A DNA stretch of 32,738 nt, taken from the NCBI GenBank assembly GCA_945787105.1, contig CALZGZ010000058.1:1-32738 (forward strand). The letters are read 5' to 3'. Each line of letters opens with the position of its first letter. The first letter of the stretch is position 1. The notes under the pieces are model-generated. The model was not told the origin of the DNA and ran no database searches. It saw only the letters and a program-made list of their open reading frames with translations. The stretch comes from an uncultured Gammaproteobacteria bacterium. GTDB taxonomy: Bacteria > Pseudomonadota > Gammaproteobacteria > Arenicellales > JAANXG01. Shown here one piece after another: positions 8,603 to 27,734 of the stretch. Position numbers and translations under genes: made by a program.

Positions 8603-10072
8603 TTATACAGGCTGCAACTCGGAAAGCATAATTGTGAATCGCCGGCTTGTGTCCAACGCCGAACTGATCTTGATACTCAAAATGTCCGCCAACGCCTTCA
8701 CCAGCGACAAGCCAAGCCCGGCGTGACGCCCGCCGGCGCGGGCCTCGTCTTTGCGCCAGAAACGCTCGAACATCAGCGGCAGATCCTGTTCGGCTAGGTC
8801 AACCGTCGGGTTAGACACGGCAAGCTGCGCGCCGACCGTATTCTCCTCCACCGCCACCACAATCACCGAATGGTCAGGGCTGTAGGACACCGCGTTGGAA
8901 AACAGATTCGTCAAAATGAGCGTCAGCTTGTCCTCATCGCTGCGCACCTTCAGGTCGTCTCGGACCCGATTGTCCAGCTGCACTTGCTTGCCGTTTGCCT
9001 GGGAGGTCAGACGTCGCCAGGTCTTGTCGATCAACTGAGAAAGGCCGATCGGCGCCATCGCCGCGCGCTGTGTGCCGGCCTCCAGCTGACTGAGCATCAT
9101 CAGGTTGGTGACGGTCCTCTCCATGTCATCGGCCAGGTGCACCAGTTCGCCAAAGAAACCCTCGACCATATCCCGGTCGGCCGGCCACTCCTTACCTACT
9201 TCCGCCAGGCTGCGCAGTTCGGCAATCGGTGTGCGCAACTCGTGCGCGACATTGCCTGAAAAACGCTTTTCGCGTTGGAACGCGGCCTCCAGACGTTCGA
9301 GCAGCTCATTGAGCTGTCTCGTAATCGGTGCCAACTCGTCGCTGCCGGGCGTGTCCGGCAGCCGGGTGTTCAGGTTGTCCGCATCCAAGTTGCGGACCTC
9401 GCCGGCGATTTTGTTCAGCGGCTTCAGGCCGCGGTCGACGGACAGACGAACCAGCAGTGCCGTGGCGCCCATCAGCAGTGCAAAAATCACCGCCAGCGTG
9501 GCGCGCACGGTCGCGATCAAATGGTCGAGGTCTTCCGTCCCGCGCGCGACCGCGATGTCCGCTCGGAGGTCGGAGGCCGATGTCCCGGCCTCACCATCAT
9601 CCGGCTGTCTGCCTGGGTCAGCCTGCGCGCCCGCTTGCTTCTCGTCGTCATCCGGACCATCGTGGTACGGGACAAACCGGACTGCGACCAGCCTGCCGAC
9701 ACGTCCATCGGGCAGTGTCAGGTCGGTAAAGTGAGGTGTATCCAGGGGTGGGTTCGACCGCGGCAGGTCCGCCTCGCCCAGGGAACCCGACCGCTCAATA
9801 AGCGTGCCATCCGCCAGCCACAACTGGAAGTATTCCGGACGCTCGTCCGCCGCGAACTCGGGCATGAACCGGTCGACAAAATCAAACTCGACTTCGCCCT
9901 CATCCTGCTCGCTCAGGGTCACCAGGCTCATCGCCTTGGACAGCAGGTTGCGATCGAACTCTGTCTTCAGCTGCTCGCGCAACAGGTAATCGATCGTCAC
10001 GCCGGCAATAATCAACAGCATCGCCATCCCGGCGATGATCAAGAATGCCAATCTGGTTCGAATTGAGCTCAT
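8603..10072 (-). CDS. membrane sensor histidine kinase, PmrB/QseC-like
   Basis: The 489-aa kinase has TM1 at about residues 8-28, a periplasmic sensor at 30-190, TM2 at 191-212, HAMP at 213-265, a HisKA domain with HELRTP (phospho-acceptor H277), and a HATPase with N-box NLFSNAVSYS (N393) and G-box AGLGLSLVKAL. The sensor holds a very acidic, low-complexity insert around residues 137-165 (DGPDDDEKQ and following). A TTG at 10084, immediately after the response-regulator stop, would add four residues; the ATG at 10072 is preferred. In either case translation is probably coupled to the upstream regulator gene. A decayed relative of this gene lies at 27193-27570. Confidence 0.9.
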   Translation of the reverse strand: MSSIRTRLAFLIIAGMAMLLIIAGVTIDYLLREQLKTEFDRNLLSKAMSLVTLSEQDEGEVEFDFVDRFMPEFAADERPEYFQLWLADGTLIERSGSLGEADLPRSNPPLDTPHFTDLTLPDGRVGRLVAVRFVPYHDGPDDDEKQAGAQADPGRQPDDGEAGTSASDLRADIAVARGTEDLDHLIATVRATLAVIFALLMGATALLVRLSVDRGLKPLNKIAGEVRNLDADNLNTRLPDTPGSDELAPITRQLNELLERLEAAFQREKRFSGNVAHELRTPIAELRSLAEVGKEWPADRDMVEGFFGELVHLADDMERTVTNLMMLSQLEAGTQRAAMAPIGLSQLIDKTWRRLTSQANGKQVQLDNRVRDDLKVRSDEDKLTLILTNLFSNAVSYSPDHSVIVVAVEENTVGAQLAVSNPTVDLAEQDLPLMFERFWRKDEARAGGRHAGLGLSLVKALADILSIKISSALDTSRRFTIMLSELQPV

Positions 10073-10084
10073 GAGCGTGCGCAA

Positions 10085-13282: not shown

Positions 13283-13539
13283 TAATCGTTGGCAGGTATG
13301 TGGTGGCAAACATCGGCTGATCGTTGGCGTCACGCGACTGGTGGTGCCGGCCACTATTCAGGTGATTGGGAACGCATCAATGACGCGACTGCGTGTGGCG
13401 GCATGCTTGAGTTTGGGGTCGCGGACCACCTTGCGGAAGTTGTTACCGACGCCGGCACGACTGCATACGTGGTGTGCATCTGATTTACCGATATTTCATT
13501 CTCACAAAAAAACTGACCGGTTGTTGCTATATTGCGTGT
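13283..13539. other. intergenic region before the outer-membrane barrel gene
   Basis: About 257 bases. Short open frames cross it (for example a 64-codon frame at 13289-13483 with a TTG start) but none has recognisable features. An extended -10-like TGCTATATT lies at 13524-13532, just before the barrel gene. Confidence 0.35.
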
Positions 13540-14694
13540 ATGGTGGCCAGAACAGTTAATAACCCATCCATCAACCATAAACGGACACACGCGATAACAC
13601 CCCTCCTAAGTGTGATCCACAATGCGTGGTGGTTCCGGATCCTAAGCGTCGTATTGATCAGCGCCGTGTCCATACCCCCTTCGTTGGCCGAGAGCGTTGA
13701 CGATGAGTCGGTGCGCCTATACCGCACGCGAGCTGAAAAACGTGAAGCCGGTTTGCATCGGCAGTTGACACCCTGGCTCACACTCTCCGGACTGGTCGAA
13801 TTGGAATGGAACAAGGATCGTTTCTCCGTTGCTCGCAATGCCGATGTCATCCGTCAAGAGGAGCAAGCAATGACGGTGCAACTGGGATTGATTGCGACCC
13901 CCCTGGAGAGTGTCAAGGCTGAGTTGATCCTCGAATACGATACCGACACCGATCGAGTCAAAACCGAGGAATTCACCATCGCCCTAGAATCAGATCCATG
14001 GGAACTTATCGTCGGCAAGCAGTATCTGCCGTTTGGGGAATATTTCAGCCGCTTCGTCACTGGCCCGCTGATCGAGTTTGGTGAGACCCGTGAAACGGCC
14101 GCGACGCTGACTTATGATTTCGCCGACCGGCTGGATCTATCGATGGCTATCTATCATGGCGCAGCCGGTGAGCGGGAGCGCAACAATCGCGGTTTGGATT
14201 GGACACTGTCGATGGAGGCGTGGCCACAGGAAAATCTTGCGCTGGGTTTTAGCTATCTGACCGATCTGGCCGATGCCGACAGCCGTTTGCTGGTCGATAA
14301 TGACAACCGCTTTGTCCGCAAGGTGCCGGGTTTGAGCGGCTACATCTTATGGATCAATGACAACTTCGAACTGACCTTTGAGGCGTTAGGGGCGACGCGG
14401 TCGTTTATCGAATTGGAGGCCGATCGCGACCAGCCCTGGGCCTGGAACCTGGAGCTCGGGCTATTTCCACATCGTCACTTCGACTTGGCGCTGCGTATCG
14501 AAGGCAGCCGGGAGCTGGAAGACGAACCGTACCTTCAGTACGGCGCCGCCGTCACATTCCTCGTGCACCGCTACGTGACCGTGACAATGGAGTACCTGCA
14601 CGGCCGCTTTCGTGGCGATCTCGCTACCGACGTCGACGACAACCCGCTCGATGACGTCAATCGTTTTAGCGCACAATTATCCGTTGCCTTTTAG
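13540..14694 (+). CDS. LbtU-like outer-membrane beta-barrel protein
   Basis: From the ATG at 13540 the product is 384 aa. After a long basic n-region comes a signal-peptide core (FRILSVVLISAVSIPPSLAES). The rest is alternating amphipathic strands with frequent aromatic girdle residues, ending in the classic outer-membrane C-terminus FSAQLSVAF (terminal Phe). Motifs such as LTLSGLVELEWN, VGKQYLPFGEYFSRFVTGPL and TLTYDF are typical of LbtU-family barrels; LbtU itself is a Legionella siderophore receptor that works without TonB. The substrate here is unknown. The true start may lie further downstream, because a -10-like TATATT sits only 8 bases before this ATG. It may form a unit with the STN/HEAT gene upstream. 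Confidence 0.8.
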   Translation: MVARTVNNPSINHKRTHAITPLLSVIHNAWWFRILSVVLISAVSIPPSLAESVDDESVRLYRTRAEKREAGLHRQLTPWLTLSGLVELEWNKDRFSVARNADVIRQEEQAMTVQLGLIATPLESVKAELILEYDTDTDRVKTEEFTIALESDPWELIVGKQYLPFGEYFSRFVTGPLIEFGETRETAATLTYDFADRLDLSMAIYHGAAGERERNNRGLDWTLSMEAWPQENLALGFSYLTDLADADSRLLVDNDNRFVRKVPGLSGYILWINDNFELTFEALGATRSFIELEADRDQPWAWNLELGLFPHRHFDLALRIEGSRELEDEPYLQYGAAVTFLVHRYVTVTMEYLHGRFRGDLATDVDDNPLDDVNRFSAQLSVAF

Positions 14695-15000: not shown

Positions 15001-16638
15001 ATGGGTCCGAAAACCCTGAAGTTGAAAGTCGGTCTTTACTTGGCGATTGCCCTGACGGTGGCCATGGTGACATTCATCGTCCTGGTGGTAAAGCATCACC
15101 GCGCGCACCTGCTCGATGCGGCAATCAGTCACGTCACGCAGCTTTCCGAAGTGGTCACCAAGAGCACACGTTTCGCCATGCTGCAGAATCAGCCGTCTTA
15201 CGTGCACCGGATCATCGAGGATGTCGGCAGTCAAGACGGAATCGTCAAGATCAGGATAATGAGCAAAGACGGGACGATCATACATTCCAGCTTCCCTGAC
15301 GAATTCGGTCTTCAAGTGGACAAAAATGCGGAGGGATGCTTCCACTGCCACGAGAGCGAGACGCCTCTGGCCCAGATCCCCAGGTACAAGCGGGCGCGGA
15401 TTTTTAAATCTGTGCAGGGGGGCAGATTGCTGGGCAGCATGGAGGTGATCCGCAATGAACCGTCCTGTTACACCGCGAGTTGCCACGTGCACCGCAAGGA
15501 TCAATCGGTGCTTGGCGTTTTGGATATTGTCTATTCCCTCGATGGGATCGACCGCAAGGCATACGTCGACACGCTCACTATCGCCAGTTTTGCCGTCGGA
15601 TTCACCATCATCGCCTCCCTGTTCGTGAGTTTTTTCGTGCATCGTATGGTGTATGTACCGTTACGGGACCTGGAGGCCGGCGCCGACCGGCTGTCATCGG
15701 GAAATCTGCAACAGTCCATCCCGGTGCGCAGCCAGGACGAGTTTGGTCAGCTGGCAGTCTCTTTTAACGCCATGACCGAGGCGCTCAGCAAGTCCCAGAA
15801 GGAATTGCAGGAGTGGGGCCACACCCTGGAACAAAAGGTGCAAGAGAAGACCAAGGAGTTGCAGGCCGCCCAGGCCGAATCCGCGCATCGGGAAAAACTT
15901 GCTTCCGTCGGACTGCTCGCGGCCGGCATCGCGCATGAGCTGAACAACCCCTTGACCGGGGTGCTTACCTTCTCGACCCTGGTCCGCGAGAAGATGGCGG
16001 AGGGAAGCCCGGAGGCGGAAGACCTGGACCTGGTGATCCGCGAAACCAATAGATGCGCCACCATCATTCGAAGACTTCTCGATTTCGCGCGTGAAAAAAC
16101 CCCGGAGAAAAAATTTGCCGATCTCAACAAGATCATCGAGGATACGGAGCAGTTGATAAAACGGCCGGCGTATCTGGATGACATTGAGGTCAACATGGAC
16201 CTCGACCACGACCTGCCGCAGATCTGGCTCGACGAGGATTTAATCAAGCAGGTCATCATGAACATTCTCGTCAACGCGCAACAGGCCATCGAGGGCACCG
16301 GCCGCATTACAATACGCAGCCGTCTGGTGCCGCAGGCGGACAGTCCCGAGGCGGGCCCCGGAACCATGGTGGAGATATCGATCACCGATACCGGATGTGG
16401 AATCTCGGAGCAAGACCGGCAACGGATTTTCGATCCGTTCTTCACCTCGAAGGGGGTGGGGCAAGGAACAGGGCTGGGATTGTCCGTCAGCCATGGTATC
16501 GTCCGGGCGCATGGTGGGACAATCCAGGTGGACAGCAAGGTCGGGGAGGGAGCTACGTTCCGGATCTACCTGCCGGTAGAGGCGCAAGACACCGAAGTAG
16601 CGAGCATTGACTATGAGCGGCAAGATACTGGTAGTTGA
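15001..16638 (+). CDS. membrane histidine kinase with c-type heme motifs in the sensor domain
   Basis: The 545-aa kinase has TM1 at about residues 8-30, a periplasmic sensor at 32-195, TM2 at about 197-217, HAMP at 218-270, a coiled coil, a HisKA domain of NtrB type (HELNNPLTG, H312) and a HATPase (N-box NILVNAQQA, then DTGCGIS and GTGLGLSVSHGI). The sensor contains CFHCH at residues 113-117 (CXXCH) and CYTASCH at 156-162 (CX4CH), both possible covalent heme c sites facing the periplasm. It probably senses redox state or a gaseous ligand through heme and phosphorylates the NtrC-type regulator, whose start lies 26 bases inside this gene. Facing multiheme cytochrome genes fit that role. Confidence 0.9.
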   Translation: MGPKTLKLKVGLYLAIALTVAMVTFIVLVVKHHRAHLLDAAISHVTQLSEVVTKSTRFAMLQNQPSYVHRIIEDVGSQDGIVKIRIMSKDGTIIHSSFPDEFGLQVDKNAEGCFHCHESETPLAQIPRYKRARIFKSVQGGRLLGSMEVIRNEPSCYTASCHVHRKDQSVLGVLDIVYSLDGIDRKAYVDTLTIASFAVGFTIIASLFVSFFVHRMVYVPLRDLEAGADRLSSGNLQQSIPVRSQDEFGQLAVSFNAMTEALSKSQKELQEWGHTLEQKVQEKTKELQAAQAESAHREKLASVGLLAAGIAHELNNPLTGVLTFSTLVREKMAEGSPEAEDLDLVIRETNRCATIIRRLLDFAREKTPEKKFADLNKIIEDTEQLIKRPAYLDDIEVNMDLDHDLPQIWLDEDLIKQVIMNILVNAQQAIEGTGRITIRSRLVPQADSPEAGPGTMVEISITDTGCGISEQDRQRIFDPFFTSKGVGQGTGLGLSVSHGIVRAHGGTIQVDSKVGEGATFRIYLPVEAQDTEVASIDYERQDTGS

Positions 16639-18028
16639 CGACGAGGAGATCGTCGTAAAAAGTTGCCTGCGCATTCTCGGCGAGACCGATTACGCGGTCG
16701 ACGCGGTGCGAAGCGGCATGGAGGCCCTGCAAAAATTGGATGAGACGCACTACGACGTGCTCGTCTTGGACATCATGATGCCGAAGATGGACGGCCTGGA
16801 AGTGCTACAGAGGGTTAAAGAATCCCACCCCGACATCGATGTCATCATGGTCACCGGATTGTCGGAAATCGAGACCGCGGTTCATTCCATGAAGCTGGGG
16901 GCCTTTGACTACCTGCCTAAACCTTTCGATCCGGAAGCACTCAAGCTCTTGGTGGGGCGGGCTTTCGAGAAGCGGCGTCTACAGCAGGAAAATCTCAACC
17001 TCAAAAATGAGGTCAGTTCCAAGTACCGTTTCGAAAACATTATTGGCTCCAGCACCCAGATGCAGAGCGTATATCGTCTTATTGCAAAGTGCGCACCCAC
17101 CAACAGCACGGTACTGCTCAGGGGGGAGAGCGGGACCGGCAAAGAGTTGGTAGCCCGCGCCATCCACTACAACAGCCTACGCAAAGACAGAGCCTTTGTC
17201 CCGGTCGACTGTGGTTCACTGAGTGAACAGCTACTTGAGAGCGAGTTGTTCGGCCACGTCAAGGGCTCGTTTACCGGTGCGGTGGCAAACAAGCGAGGGT
17301 TATTCGAAATCGCAGAGGGCGGAACGCTGTTTCTGGATGAAATAGGAAATATTTCCTTGTCCACCCAGGCAAAGCTTCTGCGTATTATCCAGGAACGGGA
17401 ATTCAAGGCGGTGGGGGACACGCGGACGCAGGCTGCCAATATCAGGCTGATCAGCGCCACCAATAAAGACCTCAAGGCGATGGTCGCCGACGGAACATTC
17501 CGCGAAGATCTTTACTATCGCCTTAATATCTTTCCCATCGAGATACCACCGTTGCGGGAACGCCGCGAAGACATCCCCGCCCTCGCATTTCATTTTCTCA
17601 AGCTGTTCGGCGAGGAACTGGGGAAAGAAATGACTGAGTTCTCCGTGGAGGCGATGAACATGCTGGTGAACTACAATTGGCCGGGGAATGTAAGGGAACT
17701 GGAAAATACGATACACCGTGCCGTAATCCTTGCCACCGAAAAGGTCATCCGCCAGGGTCACCTGGTGACGATTCTCGACATGGGCGCGGCGCTCGATTCC
17801 AACGTGCCGAAGACAAGCGATGAGCTCAAGCGCTTCAAGAAGCTGGCTCGTGAGAAGTCGGTGAAAAATATCGAGAAGCTGTTCATCCTCGAAGCGTTGA
17901 AAAGAAACGACTGGAACGTCACCAAGAGTGCCGAGGACACCGGTATGCAGCGCACTAACTTCCAGGCGCTGATGAAAAAGTACGATATCCGGATACGGGG
18001 AGCGGAGCAGGAATCCGCCGGTTCCTAA
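16613..18028 (+). CDS. NtrC-family sigma-54-dependent response regulator
   Basis: The 471-aa regulator starts MSGKILVVDDEEIV; the ATG at 16613 is chosen over a TTG six bases earlier. It has a receiver (acidic pair DD, phospho-acceptor D53 in VLDIMMPKMDG, KPFDPEAL), an AAA+ domain with Walker A GESGTGKE near residue 171, a sigma-54 contact loop GSFTGA (near 218, one change from GAFTGA), Walker B GGTLFLDEIG and R-finger region FREDLYYRLN. A C-terminal Fis-type helix-turn-helix follows (ALKRNDWNVTKSAEDTGM). It activates sigma-54 RNA polymerase when phosphorylated, most likely by the overlapping kinase. A consensus -24/-12 promoter at 21406-21421 in the same cluster is the obvious target. Confidence 0.95.
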   Translation: MSGKILVVDDEEIVVKSCLRILGETDYAVDAVRSGMEALQKLDETHYDVLVLDIMMPKMDGLEVLQRVKESHPDIDVIMVTGLSEIETAVHSMKLGAFDYLPKPFDPEALKLLVGRAFEKRRLQQENLNLKNEVSSKYRFENIIGSSTQMQSVYRLIAKCAPTNSTVLLRGESGTGKELVARAIHYNSLRKDRAFVPVDCGSLSEQLLESELFGHVKGSFTGAVANKRGLFEIAEGGTLFLDEIGNISLSTQAKLLRIIQEREFKAVGDTRTQAANIRLISATNKDLKAMVADGTFREDLYYRLNIFPIEIPPLRERREDIPALAFHFLKLFGEELGKEMTEFSVEAMNMLVNYNWPGNVRELENTIHRAVILATEKVIRQGHLVTILDMGAALDSNVPKTSDELKRFKKLAREKSVKNIEKLFILEALKRNDWNVTKSAEDTGMQRTNFQALMKKYDIRIRGAEQESAGS

Positions 18029-18101: not shown

Positions 18102-18827
18102 TTAGTGAATTTGCAGCGGAGACGGTGGCCTGGTGATATGCATCCGTATCTGTTGTTTGTCTTTGTCCTCGTCGTGCCGCTTGTCCTTGTTTGCATCCAT
18201 CGACTTTTCGTCCTCTATTTCTTCATATCCAGTAAACATCGCCTTGATGTGCGCCGTAGCCGTGTGACCAAGGGTCGCAAGATAGACATGAATGAATAGA
18301 AAAAACGCGAAGAAGATGAGTATCAAAACGTGCACGGTATCCACGACCCGCACCCCACCGAGCAACGTCACGATTCCCGAAAAGCGTTCCACGTCCCAAA
18401 GCAGGATCCCGGTGATGATCTGCAAGGGAATGACGAGGAGCATAATGATCTGGTAAGACACCCGCTGCAATGGATTGAACTTGTTGTAGGGAGTCATGTG
18501 GTGCGGATTCGGCGCACCTCTGAAAATACCCCAGCCGTAATAACGGGCCTGACGGATGCTGTCACGGTAGTATTTTTTCGGATTCAATTCAGGGTGATAG
18601 ATCCTGATCTTGTCCGAAAACAAATAAAACGACAGCCAGATAAAGAAATTACCGATAAGCAAAAACCCGATCCAGTTGTGCACGGTGACCGTGAGCTGCA
18701 AGGACATGACGTTGACCAACCCGACATATCTGATCTGCAGGCCGGTGAGGATTAGCGCGATAACGCTACTCGCATTGATCCAATGCCAGATTCTGATTGG
18801 AAGTGGATGAATGTATATTTTTTTCAT
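18102..18827 (-). CDS. FdnI/HydC-type diheme cytochrome b membrane subunit
   Basis: The 241-aa integral membrane protein has four main hydrophobic segments. Its four histidines at FdnI-like positions, H15 (IRIWHWINA), H50 (VHNWIGF), H166 (DTVHVLIL) and H180 (FIHVYLA), would ligate two b hemes across the membrane. The ATG at 18827 follows GAGG by 10 bases; the longer frame to 18899 overlaps the upstream gene and is rejected. It lies 13 bases after the nine-heme cytochrome, so it is cotranscribed. It probably oxidises quinol (or reduces quinone) and exchanges electrons with that cytochrome. The highly charged tail (about 200-241) is unusual. No catalytic dehydrogenase subunit is encoded nearby. 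Confidence 0.9.
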   Translation of the reverse strand: MKKIYIHPLPIRIWHWINASSVIALILTGLQIRYVGLVNVMSLQLTVTVHNWIGFLLIGNFFIWLSFYLFSDKIRIYHPELNPKKYYRDSIRQARYYGWGIFRGAPNPHHMTPYNKFNPLQRVSYQIIMLLVIPLQIITGILLWDVERFSGIVTLLGGVRVVDTVHVLILIFFAFFLFIHVYLATLGHTATAHIKAMFTGYEEIEDEKSMDANKDKRHDEDKDKQQIRMHITRPPSPLQIH

Positions 18828-18840
18828 CTTGCGTCCCTCT

Positions 18841-20178
18841 TTATTTGCCTTTCCTGAGTAATTTGCGCATCGCCAGGTGCACGATCGGCACCGAGGCACC
18901 GCCGGCCACCGCGAGAAGCAGGAGAATATCCAGCAGTTTTACCCTTGTGCCTCCCAAAGCGTAAAACCCACCCACAGAATTCATCGAAAGCGCGGAGCTC
19001 AACACCTCTTTTTCAGCGTCGTAACTCACCCGTTTGCCGTCGGCACGGATTAGAGAGACGGTGACGTTCTGGAACGGTTCGGCGCCATCGCTATGACAGC
19101 TCTCGCAGTTCCTGAGCGCTTTTTCTTTCCAAGCCAATTGATGCGCCTGTTCCCCGGTGACGACTTCCATGCGGCCCCGTAGGGTCACTTCGGCCGCGGT
19201 CCCGTCGCGATTAATTCCCCGCACCAGATTCCACAATTCTTTTGCATCCAGACCGTCTTTGCTCGACTCCCTCGGACCGGGCAGATTACCCAACCGCGGC
19301 GAGACTTCGTTTTCGGAAATCGGCCGCTGGGCCACGCTGTCAAATAGCATGAGATCAACCCGTCGTCGCGCCGCCGGCGCATGGCAAGCGGCGCAGGATA
19401 CTGCTTGAAGATGTAGCCCGGCGTTTGGCAACCATTTCTTGTGGGCACCCTTTGCACCCTCATGGCAACCGAGACATGCCTCTTTCAACCGGTCCTCGAC
19501 CGATGCCGCATTGACGTCATGCGCGCGATGGCAGTCGGAGCAAACGGGCGCCTCGATATGCCCCAGTTTGCTGCGGGCCTGCCCATGCATACTCTTGAGA
19601 TAAACATCGAAGATGTTTGCATGACAATTCTTGCATGGACCACCGGTTAATGTTTCGTACGCCGCTTTGGGTTTCACAGTATGAGATCCATGGCAGTCCG
19701 TGCACACCGGCGCCGCAAAGTTGCCAGATTCGACCAGTGAGGCATGAATGCTTCCCTCGTACTGATGGGATTTGTCCTCATGGCACTCATAGCAGATCTT
19801 GGCCAGTGCGATGGATCGCTCACGCTTGTTGGCGTAAGTCTTTTTGTTCTTGCTCAGCGAGTGCGTGTTCAGATTGATGTCCCGATGGCAGCTAGCGCAT
19901 CCGATCCAGTTATGCACCGACTTTGCAAACACCTCGCCCGGCACATGCAGGGAGAGCTTTTCGCCGTCTCCCAGAGTCGTTGAGAGCCGCTCGAAGGAAT
20001 GGCATTTGAGGCACTTCCCATCCTCTGCCGATAGCGAATCGTCTGGAATACTTGCCAGCGCAGTGGACGTGAGCCATGAAAAAGAACACAGAACAAGAAA
20101 CATTACCCCTGCCAGCTTACGAAGATCGGTGGGTAATCTGCCCATTGTCATCTTGTCTTTTCTGTTGGAAATTGTCAT
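18841..20178 (-). CDS. nine-heme membrane-anchored cytochrome c
   Basis: The 445-aa protein has a hydrophobic signal (about residues 22-42, cut near ALAS) and nine CXXCH motifs: CLKCH (56), CASCH (94), CYECH (129), CTDCH (159), CKNCH (182), CSDCH (213), CLGCH (235), CAACH (262) and CESCH (358). A C-terminal TM segment (about 414-436) is followed by a basic tail, so it is held on the periplasmic face. The gap of almost 100 residues between hemes 8 and 9 suggests an extra non-heme subdomain. With the cytochrome b gene directly downstream it forms a quinol:multiheme-cytochrome pair. Nine c-type motifs plus an FdnI-type b domain is also the composition of the fused Geobacter CbcL. Inner-membrane electron transfer is the inferred role. 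Confidence 0.93.
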   Translation of the reverse strand: MTISNRKDKMTMGRLPTDLRKLAGVMFLVLCSFSWLTSTALASIPDDSLSAEDGKCLKCHSFERLSTTLGDGEKLSLHVPGEVFAKSVHNWIGCASCHRDINLNTHSLSKNKKTYANKRERSIALAKICYECHEDKSHQYEGSIHASLVESGNFAAPVCTDCHGSHTVKPKAAYETLTGGPCKNCHANIFDVYLKSMHGQARSKLGHIEAPVCSDCHRAHDVNAASVEDRLKEACLGCHEGAKGAHKKWLPNAGLHLQAVSCAACHAPAARRRVDLMLFDSVAQRPISENEVSPRLGNLPGPRESSKDGLDAKELWNLVRGINRDGTAAEVTLRGRMEVVTGEQAHQLAWKEKALRNCESCHSDGAEPFQNVTVSLIRADGKRVSYDAEKEVLSSALSMNSVGGFYALGGTRVKLLDILLLLAVAGGASVPIVHLAMRKLLRKGK

Positions 20179-20902: not shown

Positions 20903-21349
20903 TTAGTTTTCCCAAGGATATCGATACTTAAAGCTTTCGCCGCTGTCGTGGTCTGCTTCACAAGTTTGCAGAGTCCACTTTTTTTGCAGCATGGCTGCGT
21001 TCGCGGCCTTGATGACATCATCCGGACCCACCGGCTTGGCAAGGTAATCGTAAGCACCGAGCCGCACCGCCTCTTTGGCGGTTTCAATGGACGGGTAACC
21101 GGTGATGATGACCACCTGGCATTCGGGCCATCTCTCCTTAATGATCTTGAGCACCGACATGCCGTCTAAATCCGGCATGCGCAGATCGAGCAGTATCACG
21201 TCAAACGGATGGCGCTCCATTGCACGCAACGCCTCTTGCCCATTCCAGGCCTCTTCCACGTGGCAGTGCAGGCCTTCCAGGGTTCTGAGATGACTCATGC
21301 GTACCACTTCTTCGTCATCAACAATGAGGATGTTCGTTGTTTCGTACAT
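20903..21349 (-). CDS. stand-alone response-regulator receiver
   Basis: The 148-aa protein is a single receiver domain: ILIVDDEEVVR, phospho-acceptor D55 in ILLDLRMPDLDG, VVIITGYPS, and KPVGPDDVI with the conserved Lys. A short tail after residue 120 has no output domain. The AGGAGG site before the ATG is very strong. It is the first gene after the consensus sigma-54 promoter and lies 32 bases before the next receiver gene. It could be a phosphate sink or phosphorelay partner of the heme-sensor kinase, or an adaptor for an unlinked kinase. Confidence 0.9.
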   Translation of the reverse strand: MYETTNILIVDDEEVVRMSHLRTLEGLHCHVEEAWNGQEALRAMERHPFDVILLDLRMPDLDGMSVLKIIKERWPECQVVIITGYPSIETAKEAVRLGAYDYLAKPVGPDDVIKAANAAMLQKKWTLQTCEADHDSGESFKYRYPWEN

Positions 21350-21405: not shown

Positions 21406-21421
21406 TGCAACTACCGTGCCA
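21406..21421 (-). promoter_or_regulatory. sigma-54 (-24/-12) promoter
   Basis: The minus strand reads TGGCACG-GTAG-TTGCA, an exact match to the RpoN consensus TGGCACG-N4-TTGCW, including the invariant GG and GC ten bases apart. It ends 56 bases upstream of the receiver gene start (21349), leaving room for a short leader with the AGGAGG site. The NtrC-type activator at 16613-18028 is the natural regulator. Confidence 0.85.
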
Positions 21422-24432: not shown

Positions 24433-24600
24433 GATCTTTATCCTCCTGCATGATAAATACTTACTCCGGCAGTGAGTTTTTACCGCCGCTCACCCAGTCT
24501 GTTTCAAGTTGCGTGCCAACCTAGAGGGCGTGGTGACCGCCAGCAAAAGATTGCTACTTATCAATACGCTGAAAGAACCCGGTGGTTGATCGTGTGAATT

Positions 24601-24609: not shown

Positions 24610-24666
24610 GAGATGGGTGTGAAACGTGTGGGGATACGGTGTGGGGCACACAGAGGGGCTTTCTCC

Positions 24667-27192
24667 ATGGCAAGATTCGGCAAAACGGGCACGCTCATAC
24701 TAGGCCCAATCTCCGCCGTATTCTTTTTGTTGGTGTTTATCCCGATAACCCACAACACCTACCTCATCGGGTTCCACGGTAAATGGCAGGACGAACGATT
24801 CGTCATCACGTTGATCGAGCCCGACAGTCCGGCGCAGCTGGCTGGGTTTCGCGTCGGTGATGTCGTGTCGCGGCAAGGGACCACGCCAACCTCCCAATGG
24901 CACCAATGGTACCGTTCTGATTTAAGCTCCTATCTAAAAGCCCGATACCAACTTCGGGACAAAAACATTTCCTACGACATCGATCGGGATACTGGGTCGG
25001 TAATCCTCAATCTCACACCACGACCACTGAGCGGCAGGGAAACATGGACTTTTTATGGGTTCCGCACGGTGTTGATGCTGTTCCTGATGGGGCTGGCGGT
25101 CTATATCGTCATTTCCAAATCCAGGGAACGGTACGCGAATATGATTTCTATGTGTTTCTGTTTTGCGGTGATGTGGCTCGCCAGCGATGAACCCTACTGG
25201 GAGTTGTTCTACTCTCCGTTGGTTCGGGGAGCCATATTCCCACTGATCAATATCGTCGACCTGCTCGAAATCCTGTTCTTGCAATTGGTCATGAGCATCC
25301 TTGTGCATATCAGCTTGGTATTTCCCGAGCGTCGCCAGATCATACGGCGATATCCGTGGATACCGATGTCTCTCTATATCCTGTCAATCACCGTACCTTT
25401 CGTAGCGATACTCTTTCCGGAAGGTGGCCTACTCAACAAGATTTCAGCGACTTACCCGATCCGGCTGTCGCTCAATACCGGGTTGCTGGTGTTGGCTACG
25501 TGGTTAATGCTCGTCGGTTATCGACAGTGCCGGTCTCCGGGCCAGCGTGAACGGACGCGCTGGATCATTGTCTCGATGGCGATTGTTGCCTTCGCACATA
25601 TTGTGCTCTGGAATCTCCCAATCCTGTTTGTTGGCGAACCACTGATACACCGCTACGACTGGCTTTTAGTGCCGGTATCTTTGATCCCCCTCTCTATGAC
25701 CCTATCCATTACCAACCATGAGTTGTTTGGGGTGCGGGGTATTATCCGCGGCCGCATCAAGCTGCTCGGAACGCGATTGGCAAGAGAGAAGTCGGCGGTG
25801 ATGCGGCGCGACCAGCGGATTCGTGAGATGACCCAGGAACTCGATCAGTTGACCGTGGAGCTCGAGCAGTACGCGCTAACGGAACGGGCGGGCGATGAAC
25901 CGGCCGGCACAACCTCCAAGTTGAGCAAGCTGGAGAAGCGGTTTCCACAACTTCGGCAGATTCGAGAGGAGACGTTGATCGGTGCAAGTCCGCTCTGGGA
26001 GGATGTATTCGAACAAGCCGCCGTGGCGGCGCGCGGCAGCGCACCGGTGATGATCGTCGGCGAGTCGGGAACCGGCAAAACGCATATCGCACAGGCGGTC
26101 CACCTGCTGAGCGATCGCAGCGAGCGGATCTGCAAAGAGATCAGCTGCGCCCAGTTCGAGCATGCCGATCCCGCCTTCGCGCTCGGCAAACTGTTCGGAG
26201 TGGGGACCGGGCACGGCCTGCCCAACGTGCCCAAAGAAGGTCACAGTGGTCTGCTGGAAGAAAGCGATGGCGGCACGCTGTTTCTCGACGACTTCGACCG
26301 ATTGCCCCTCAACGTGCAGGACCTGCTGCTATACCCCCTCGAGGGAAAACCGTTCGAGCCCGGGATTGGTCGCGGGGAACCGCGCACCGTATCGGTCAAA
26401 TTTATCTTTGCCACCAATCGCGATCCCGCCCAGCTGGTATCAGAAGGAAAATTTCAAGCGGATGTTTTGGCGCGAATCGGGACACGAGTCGATGTACCGC
26501 CGCTGCGCGAACGGCCCGAGGACATCCCGTTGCTGGTGGAGCATTTCACCAGGCAAATCGGCCAACAGCTCAAGCATGAAATTACCGTGGTCTCGCCTAA
26601 GACCATTCATTTATTCAGTAATTATCGTTATGCAGGCGGGAACGCCCGCGAACTCATGTCCGAAATTCACAAGGCGATCGGCAGGGCGATGCTGGAAGAT
26701 GATAATGTCTTGCGCGCCGGATATTTGTCCGAAACACTGCAAGCCGCGACGACTGCACAGCGTGAATCGGCGGGCCCGATTTCAACCGAACCTGCCGCAC
26801 CGAGCAGCGCCGCGCATGAGATTGCCGCGACCACACAGGCGACAGAGTTGGCCGCCCTGAGAAGACACCGGTTTCAAATCAAACCCGCCGAAGAAGAGCT
26901 GGGGCTCAGCCATAAATCGCGCACATTATCCAACCACTTGAGAGGACTGTGCATTAAGACTTTGAGCGAAAACGACTGGGATCTTGGGCGCGCCGCCCGG
27001 TCGCTTTCTGCATCGGATGATTCCAAGATTGTGACTCGAATCGAAGGAAAGATGCGGCGGTATCTGAAAAACATAGAAGATAACGTGGGTAATCAGTCCG
27101 AGAGCAAGTTGTACAACAATCTACCCGCGGCATATCACGAGCCCTTAGCAAGAGCGATACGCTGGGTTCGAACCGCGTGTGACGCACCTTGA
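24667..27192 (+). CDS. membrane PDZ-like/AAA+ protein related to sigma-54 activators, GAFTGA absent
   Basis: The 841-aa product has a first TM at about residues 8-25, then a PDZ-like periplasmic domain (about 30-115; SPAQLAGFRVGDVVSRQG). Seven or so further TM segments follow to about 385, then a coiled coil (about 395-445) and an AAA+ domain with Walker A GESGTGKT (465) and Walker B GGTLFLDD (535). Where NtrC-type proteins have GAFTGA, this one reads LFGVGTGHGLPN, so contact with sigma-54 is unlikely. The C-terminus (SENDWDLGRAARSLS) resembles a degraded Fis helix. A GAGG site before 24667 and a -10 at 24604 favour that ATG over 24613. It may be a membrane-tethered sensor ATPase rather than a transcription activator. 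Confidence 0.85.
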   Translation: MARFGKTGTLILGPISAVFFLLVFIPITHNTYLIGFHGKWQDERFVITLIEPDSPAQLAGFRVGDVVSRQGTTPTSQWHQWYRSDLSSYLKARYQLRDKNISYDIDRDTGSVILNLTPRPLSGRETWTFYGFRTVLMLFLMGLAVYIVISKSRERYANMISMCFCFAVMWLASDEPYWELFYSPLVRGAIFPLINIVDLLEILFLQLVMSILVHISLVFPERRQIIRRYPWIPMSLYILSITVPFVAILFPEGGLLNKISATYPIRLSLNTGLLVLATWLMLVGYRQCRSPGQRERTRWIIVSMAIVAFAHIVLWNLPILFVGEPLIHRYDWLLVPVSLIPLSMTLSITNHELFGVRGIIRGRIKLLGTRLAREKSAVMRRDQRIREMTQELDQLTVELEQYALTERAGDEPAGTTSKLSKLEKRFPQLRQIREETLIGASPLWEDVFEQAAVAARGSAPVMIVGESGTGKTHIAQAVHLLSDRSERICKEISCAQFEHADPAFALGKLFGVGTGHGLPNVPKEGHSGLLEESDGGTLFLDDFDRLPLNVQDLLLYPLEGKPFEPGIGRGEPRTVSVKFIFATNRDPAQLVSEGKFQADVLARIGTRVDVPPLRERPEDIPLLVEHFTRQIGQQLKHEITVVSPKTIHLFSNYRYAGGNARELMSEIHKAIGRAMLEDDNVLRAGYLSETLQAATTAQRESAGPISTEPAAPSSAAHEIAATTQATELAALRRHRFQIKPAEEELGLSHKSRTLSNHLRGLCIKTLSENDWDLGRAARSLSASDDSKIVTRIEGKMRRYLKNIEDNVGNQSESKLYNNLPAAYHEPLARAIRWVRTACDAP

Positions 27193-27570
27193 AATCAGAA
27201 TCTTGTCTCTAAAGTCCGCACACTCATTACGCTAACGACCTAACGCGAGGCAGAGGTGACGCTGGATTTTGCGCACGAGTTCATGCCGGAGTTTGAGGCG
27301 CCGCAACGCCCCGAGTATTGCGAACTCTGGTTAGCAGATAGCACGCTCAATGAACGATTGCGTTGTTTGGGCGAGTCGGATCTGCCGCCGGAAGGCGCGC
27401 CTATAGGTCAGCCCAATTGCAGAGATCTGGCTCTGCCTGACGGGCGAGCCGGACTTCTGGTGTTGGCATTGATATGCGAGCAATTTTGGCGCAAAGATCA
27501 GGCTCATTCGCGAACTCAGCATGTCGGACTTGGCCTCGTCCTAGTCATCCCTTCGACCAAAGAATCGGCG
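27193..27570 (+). pseudogene. relic of a PmrB/QseC-like sensor histidine kinase, internally deleted
   Basis: Reading the frame through 27199-27540 gives NLVSK, then a stop (TAA at 27241), then EVTLDFAHEFMPEF, RPEYCELWLAD, LPDGRAG and CEQFWRKDQA followed by HVGLGL. These match the kinase at 8603-10072 in order: NLLSK, EVEFDFVDRFMPEF, RPEYFQLWLAD, LPDGRVG, then FERFWRKDEA and HAGLGL. The sensor portion (residues 41 to about 130) is joined directly to the G-box region (about 436-458). About 300 residues with TM2, HAMP, the phospho-acceptor His and the N-box are missing. The relic starts directly after the stop of the AAA+ gene. A GTG-initiated open frame (27256-27699) could still be translated but would have no kinase function. 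Confidence 0.8.
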
Positions 27571-27734
27571 CCGCCTCGCGCATTAAGTCATGGTAACAAG
27601 TCGATTGTTGCTGCGTCGAAGTCGAACTCGTGCCCCCGGCCGGCCTCGCCCAGCCTCGCGATGTGCGTCATACTCTGGCTGAAACGGAAGCTCACTTGAA
27701 TTAAAACGAGACCCATACGTCGCCAGCACCGCAC

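Follow-up and report, generated by a model that had tools for sequence, protein, structure and literature searches.

A six-gene locus that pairs a putative quinone:multiheme cytochrome c gate with a heme-motif kinase and a sigma-54 promoter in a gammaproteobacterial lineage

What does a nine-heme cytochrome c do when its gene lies next to that of an FdnI-type cytochrome b, and what decides when the two are made? The question is raised by a 32,738-nucleotide stretch of DNA from an uncultured gammaproteobacterium (contig CALZGZ010000058.1), and the whole of this stretch is called the window here. An earlier note, made from the sequence alone, had described a cytochrome c with nine CXXCH motifs and a C-terminal anchor, followed 13 bases downstream by a four-histidine cytochrome b with a charged tail as an extra feature, and had read the pair as a split CbcL-like module of what looked like a gammaproteobacterium. 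The exact coordinates, the motif count, the anchor, the spacing, the tail and the host were all borne out, and the two genes were found to belong to a locus that also encodes two receiver proteins and a facing kinase/activator pair (Table 1). The most interesting aspect of the locus is its putative heme-sensor/sigma-54 circuit, more than its heme count.

Table 1. Features of the locus, with positions counted from the first letter of the window
Feature	Position	Strand	Details
Histidine kinase	15001..16638	+	HAMP/HisKA/HATPase; membrane segments 12-30, 194-212
NtrC-type sigma-54 activator/response regulator	16607..18028	+	PF00072 + PF00158; convergent with the operon; conserved in 7 genomes
b subunit: four-helix diheme cytochrome b (PF01292)	18102..18827	-	241 aa; charged C-terminal tail
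c subunit: nine-heme c-type cytochrome	18841..20178	-	445 aa; signal peptide; one C-terminal membrane helix
RRtm: response-regulator receiver domain with C-terminal hydrophobic membrane segment	20298..20870	-	PF00072; segment 157-175; operon member
RR2: stand-alone receiver protein, first gene of the operon	20903..21349	-	PF00072; conserved in 7 genomes
Sigma-54 (-24/-12) promoter TGGCACGGTAGTTGCA	21406..21421	-	56 bases 5' of RR2

The heme count of the c subunit (hydrophobic segments: signal peptide 24-42 and anchor 415-433) is well beyond what composition would give, as CXXCH motifs averaged 0.04 and never exceeded 2 in 20,000 composition-preserving shuffles. The count is nine in all seven orthologues, and every one of the nine motifs is invariant in eight homologues with identity down to 40%. 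The same eight homologues share nine invariant histidines outside the motifs and outside the membrane helix (89, 106, 145, 166, 198, 220, 246, 256 and 346), which is the number expected for nine bis-His hemes, and a tenth invariant histidine, H434, lies in or adjoins the C-terminal helix. Residues 126-377 match a 7-heme "Cytochrome c" in the PDB (28pb_A, E 6e-15), whose seven CXXCH align with hemes 3-9, including the insert region, and which has two N-terminal hemes fewer than the c subunit. An AlphaFold model of the c subunit from seven close homologues was of low confidence (mean pLDDT 37.5).

The b subunit matches PF01292 with E 7e-27. Its start was placed at the ATG at 18827, in agreement with the homologues, rather than at the earlier GTG of the mechanical list of open reading frames. 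It shares with FdnI/HydC-type diheme cytochromes b the four helices, seen here as four hydrophobic segments, and four conserved heme-ligand histidines, two of them spaced by 14 residues within the last helix; here H15, H50, H166 and H180 are invariant in seven orthologues, and H166 and H180 have the FdnI-type spacing. The charged tail, spanning about 204-241, is variable in length but in 7/7 ends in H. FdnI of formate dehydrogenase-N and HyaC have an Fe-S subunit as electron partner, whereas the partner of the cytochrome b here is very probably a multiheme c protein.

Is the pair a chance arrangement of one assembly, or is it kept? The c subunit was present in 7 of 100 related genomes (69-88% identical to the window protein), six of which, the window's own included, belong to one genus, and the seventh (G017) to another family. 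The order RR2-RRtm-cytochrome c-cytochrome b and the facing NtrC/kinase pair are kept in all seven, so that the gene pair which the earlier note wished to see sought in related genomes indeed recurs, together with both receivers. The flanks are less constant: in G017 and G002 the OFA transporter, the porin and other flanking genes are absent or altered, and G017 has an additional open reading frame between the cytochrome b gene and the activator gene. As the note had stated for the window, the surroundings of the pair showed no dehydrogenase or Fe-S gene, either in the window or in the 13-20 kb around the pair in six related genomes, and linkage to a dedicated enzyme was seen in none of the seven. 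Beyond these relatives, two samples of Pseudomonadota (369 and 398 genomes) yielded only G233 besides the window's own genome, a genome-collection scan matched a contig of G004 and one distant locus of an Acidobacteriota bacterium, and a search of plasmids gave no match.

The distant gammaproteobacterium G233 is informative, as it carries c and b in one protein of 650 aa (L023 8770-10722), with 39-40% identity to the window in the c part and 46% in the b part. The fusion shares with the window pair the nine hemes, the insert, the anchor and the b domain; it differs in being a single polypeptide without the charged tail and in lying downstream of a NapC/NirT-like multiheme gene (PF03264, six CXXCH, L023 7347-8699), the end of which overlaps the start of the fusion, an ImcH-like arrangement. 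This natural fusion is strong evidence that the cytochrome c and the cytochrome b very likely work as one unit, and it supports the earlier reading of b and c as a single quinone:multiheme-c module. An AlphaFold model of the fusion (29-row alignment) had a mean pLDDT of 72.4, a pTM of 0.40 and a linker pLDDT below 50. Its b domain has the fold of FdnI (1kqf_C: Z 13.7, rmsd 3.1, 184 aligned) and also resembles the cytochrome b of hydrogenase-1 (HyaC: Z 12.3), while the c part gave weak matches (Z about 5-6) to octaheme hydroxylamine oxidoreductases and MtrA, which may reflect merely a common arrangement. The modelled placement of c against b is unreliable at this pTM and gives no usable orientation; thus, the model yields no heme-to-heme distances.

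One part of the earlier reading had to be given up, namely that the pair is a split CbcL. The window's own genome encodes a separate fused CbcL-like protein of multiheme c and cytochrome b (673 aa, L021 on contig C67, 2377-4398), and the b domain of this protein and the b subunit are only distantly alike (BLAST E 0.13; both match PF01292). CbcL-like proteins also lack a stretch of about 90 residues that is inserted ahead of the last heme in both the c subunit and the G233 fusion. All six genomes of the genus and G007 have the fused protein, but it was not found in G017. The CbcL/MtrH/MtoC family does share the composition of nine CXXCH and a HydC/FdnI-like b domain, and the nine motifs here fall within its range of 3-23 CXXCH in the c region; however, its members are one chain with six helices, whereas the module here consists of two proteins with 4+1 helices, encoded as two open reading frames in 7/7 genomes.

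A better analogue is CbcBA of Geobacter, which is already split: CbcB (GSU0593, cytochrome b, PF01292) and CbcA (GSU0594, heptaheme c, PF09699) are encoded by two genes (PMC7726332), and CbcBA of Geobacter sulfurreducens serves low-potential quinol oxidation in extracellular electron transfer (PMC12307469). The likeness, drawn from published descriptions of CbcA and CbcB, is that adjacent genes encode a cytochrome b of PF01292 and a multiheme c protein (PF09699) anchored in the membrane, as is the case here. The differences are that CbcA has seven c hemes against nine here, and that the module here is gammaproteobacterial and has a linked heme-motif kinase and a membrane-anchored receiver. The split two-gene form is therefore not new, being preceded by Geobacter CbcB/CbcA and by pairs of a split nine-heme c and a PF01292 protein in Acidobacteriota. 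Three loci of Acidobacteriota (L056, L061 and L063) have tandem membrane-anchored multiheme c genes near PF01292 cytochrome b genes, which suggests repeated duplication of such modules.

We propose, at somewhat better than an even chance, that the module is the inner-membrane quinone:multiheme-c gate of an extracellular electron transfer pathway. By analogy with FdnI, the b subunit would provide a quinone site and two b hemes spanning the membrane; the c subunit, tethered by its C-terminal helix, would follow in this heme order and extend the chain of hemes into the periplasm. The next carriers would be c7-type triheme proteins and then a porin-cytochrome conduit, the genes of which lie elsewhere in the genome. 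A candidate for the conduit is a conduit-like cluster on contig C44, separate from the contig of the module (L034 6456-19898 and L086 343-1113), which has similarities to OetABI (PMC10553843) and other porin-cytochrome conduits. It encodes three c7-type trihemes (TIGR04257), a further triheme protein, an 11-CXXCH cytochrome and a 4-heme protein, together with a beta-barrel-looking protein of 666 aa (no family match), a PpiC isomerase and three NHL propellers. The earlier note had also recommended a search of relatives for outer-membrane cytochromes or porins, and triheme "nanowire" cytochromes did turn out to co-occur with the module: TIGR04257 genes are present in 7/7 module genomes and in 2/93 others (Fisher 2e-9, uncorrected for shared ancestry), a co-occurrence that amounts to about two independent lineages rather than seven, because six of the seven genomes share a genus. 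The triheme marker exceeded its cut-off in nine genomes, and eight of these have the module, a CbcL-like protein or both, while G006 has neither. An MtrAB-type conduit was rejected, as no MtrB/PioB match rose above the cut-off in the six genus genomes. Two further genes of the window's own genome deserve mention, a 961-aa protein with 12 CXXCH, neighboured by an NHL-like protein and by genes for ResB/CcsA-like cytochrome c maturation proteins (L035 on contig C167, 886-9077), and, in the window at 13474-14694, an LbtU-family outer-membrane porin-like protein that adjoins the heme-motif kinase and is found by the module in 5/7 genomes.

In which direction would electrons pass through such a gate? 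We slightly favour outward flow, that is, quinol oxidation, with inward flow nearly as likely. In the inward reading, which taken as a whole we hold at less than an even chance, the same gate would run in an autotroph from an extracellular or periplasmic donor over the trihemes and the nine-heme subunit to the quinone. RuBisCO was found in 6/6 genus genomes, in the window's own as a form I large subunit whose gene lies among CbbQ-like, CbbO-like, LysR and aldolase genes (L085 on contig C188, 5288-6739), and the genus is probably autotrophic; the presence of RuBisCO throughout the genus weakens the case for the outward direction. The quinone site of FdnI is on the cytoplasmic side, and a site of this type would make inward flow energy-conserving and outward flow energetically costly. 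In Candidatus Tenderia electrophaga, a gammaproteobacterial biocathode autotroph with proposed electron uptake, three trihemes that are paralogues of one another are expressed at a high level, as is an undecaheme cytochrome (PMC5371394), and the C44 cluster likewise holds trihemes and an 11-CXXCH protein. Moreover, reverse operation has been proposed for the CbcBA of Seep-SRB2 (PMC10553843). Against this, G017 has the module and the trihemes with no RuBisCO match, and the G233 fusion is paired with a NapC/NirT-type protein, of which the ImcH-like ones have so far been tied to quinol oxidation (PMC6295460). CbcL in Geobacter also oxidises quinol (PMC9129911). Proteins of the CbcL/MtoC type have been assigned to both directions, with no sequence feature separating the two (PMC6295460), and the CbcL/MtrH/MtoC family occurs in Fe(III) reducers as well as Fe(II) oxidisers (PMC6295460, PMC9129911).

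The gate, whichever way it runs, appears to be under dedicated control. Both marks of a sigma-54-regulated operon, a -24/-12 promoter and a linked NtrC-type activator, are found here. The promoter in front of RR2 is the sole exact sigma-54 promoter match within the window, is exact in 6/7 genomes and deviates at a single base in the remaining one, and no sigma-70-like promoter was found in the operon region. A second good sigma-54 promoter-like site, with one mismatch, is seen at 24503-24518 (minus strand), with a PDZ/sigma-54-activator-domain protein (24613-27192) on one side and a small gene of divergent orientation on the other. The ATG at 16613 is a possible alternative start of the activator. 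The periplasmic sensor of the kinase holds a CXXCH (CFHCH) and a CX4CH (CYTASCH), both conserved in 7/7 genomes, and the kinase probably senses redox state or a gas through c-type heme. Elsewhere in the window, a short open reading frame at 27256-27699 is like part of another histidine kinase at 8603-10084 and is apparently a decayed partial copy of it. From gene order, the conserved promoter and domain content, we infer a circuit in which the sigma-54 promoter and the linked activator would drive expression of the operon, and the heme-motif kinase would control the activator by periplasmic redox state or NO. Induction of cbcBA likewise requires a regulator, BccR.

The nature of the signal bears on a further reading, which we regard as improbable, that the module feeds a soluble periplasmic reductase (octaheme, c554-like or nitrogen-oxide) rather than an outer-membrane conduit, and that the kinase senses NO. 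The window's own genome does encode a secreted protein with 8 CXXCH and an octaheme cytochrome of the tetrathionate-reductase family, though the latter has its own cytochrome b. This octaheme protein (551 aa with a C-terminal hydrophobic stretch, L006 on contig C116, 634-2886) has a second PF01292 cytochrome b immediately downstream and so makes another c-b pair. Heme-c Cache kinases (PF11845) are able to bind NO (PMC12889525), but the kinase here, its CXXCH notwithstanding, had no match to PF11845 (sCache_heme) even at E 10, and an sCache_heme NO sensor was rejected on this ground; the match to PF21563 was weak (E 0.009, under the cut-off of that family), and the sensor part had no match in the PDB beyond chance level. 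In addition, no reductase gene is linked to the module in the seven genomes, and the conduit markers track the module. That the b subunit is an orphan left from a hydrogenase, a formate dehydrogenase or a thiosulfate reductase and a chance neighbour of an unrelated multiheme protein is very improbable and was rejected. Its best NCBIfam matches are indeed PhsC-like, HydC and FdnI models, all under cut-off, but the pair is adjacent in 7/7 genomes and fused in G233, with no such enzyme nearby.

Returning to the quinone:multiheme-c gate, the membrane-anchored receiver of the operon may hint at a second layer of control. RRtm combines a receiver with a C-terminal membrane segment, an architecture unusual among response regulators, and its phosphorylation-site residues and tail are conserved in the 7 genomes. 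We speculate, as a long shot, that the kinase takes its signal from the redox state of the cytochromes that the gate feeds and that RRtm docks on the charged cytoplasmic tail of the cytochrome b, its phosphorylation opening or closing electron flow; the contact between RRtm and the tail is a guess. If this were true, control of respiration would act on the protein itself in addition to the sigma-54 promoter.

In bacteria with extracellular respiration, the redox potential determines which of the inner-membrane quinone gates is in use, and how this potential is sensed is poorly understood. Here, a putative gate has been kept together with a kinase bearing c-heme motifs, a sigma-54 activator and a matching promoter across seven genomes of two families. 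Because gate, heme-motif kinase, activator and promoter lie in one small locus, the question of sensing becomes directly testable. With this locus, a probably autotrophic gammaproteobacterial lineage, in which the direction of electron flow is open to testing, joins the candidates for extracellular electron exchange.
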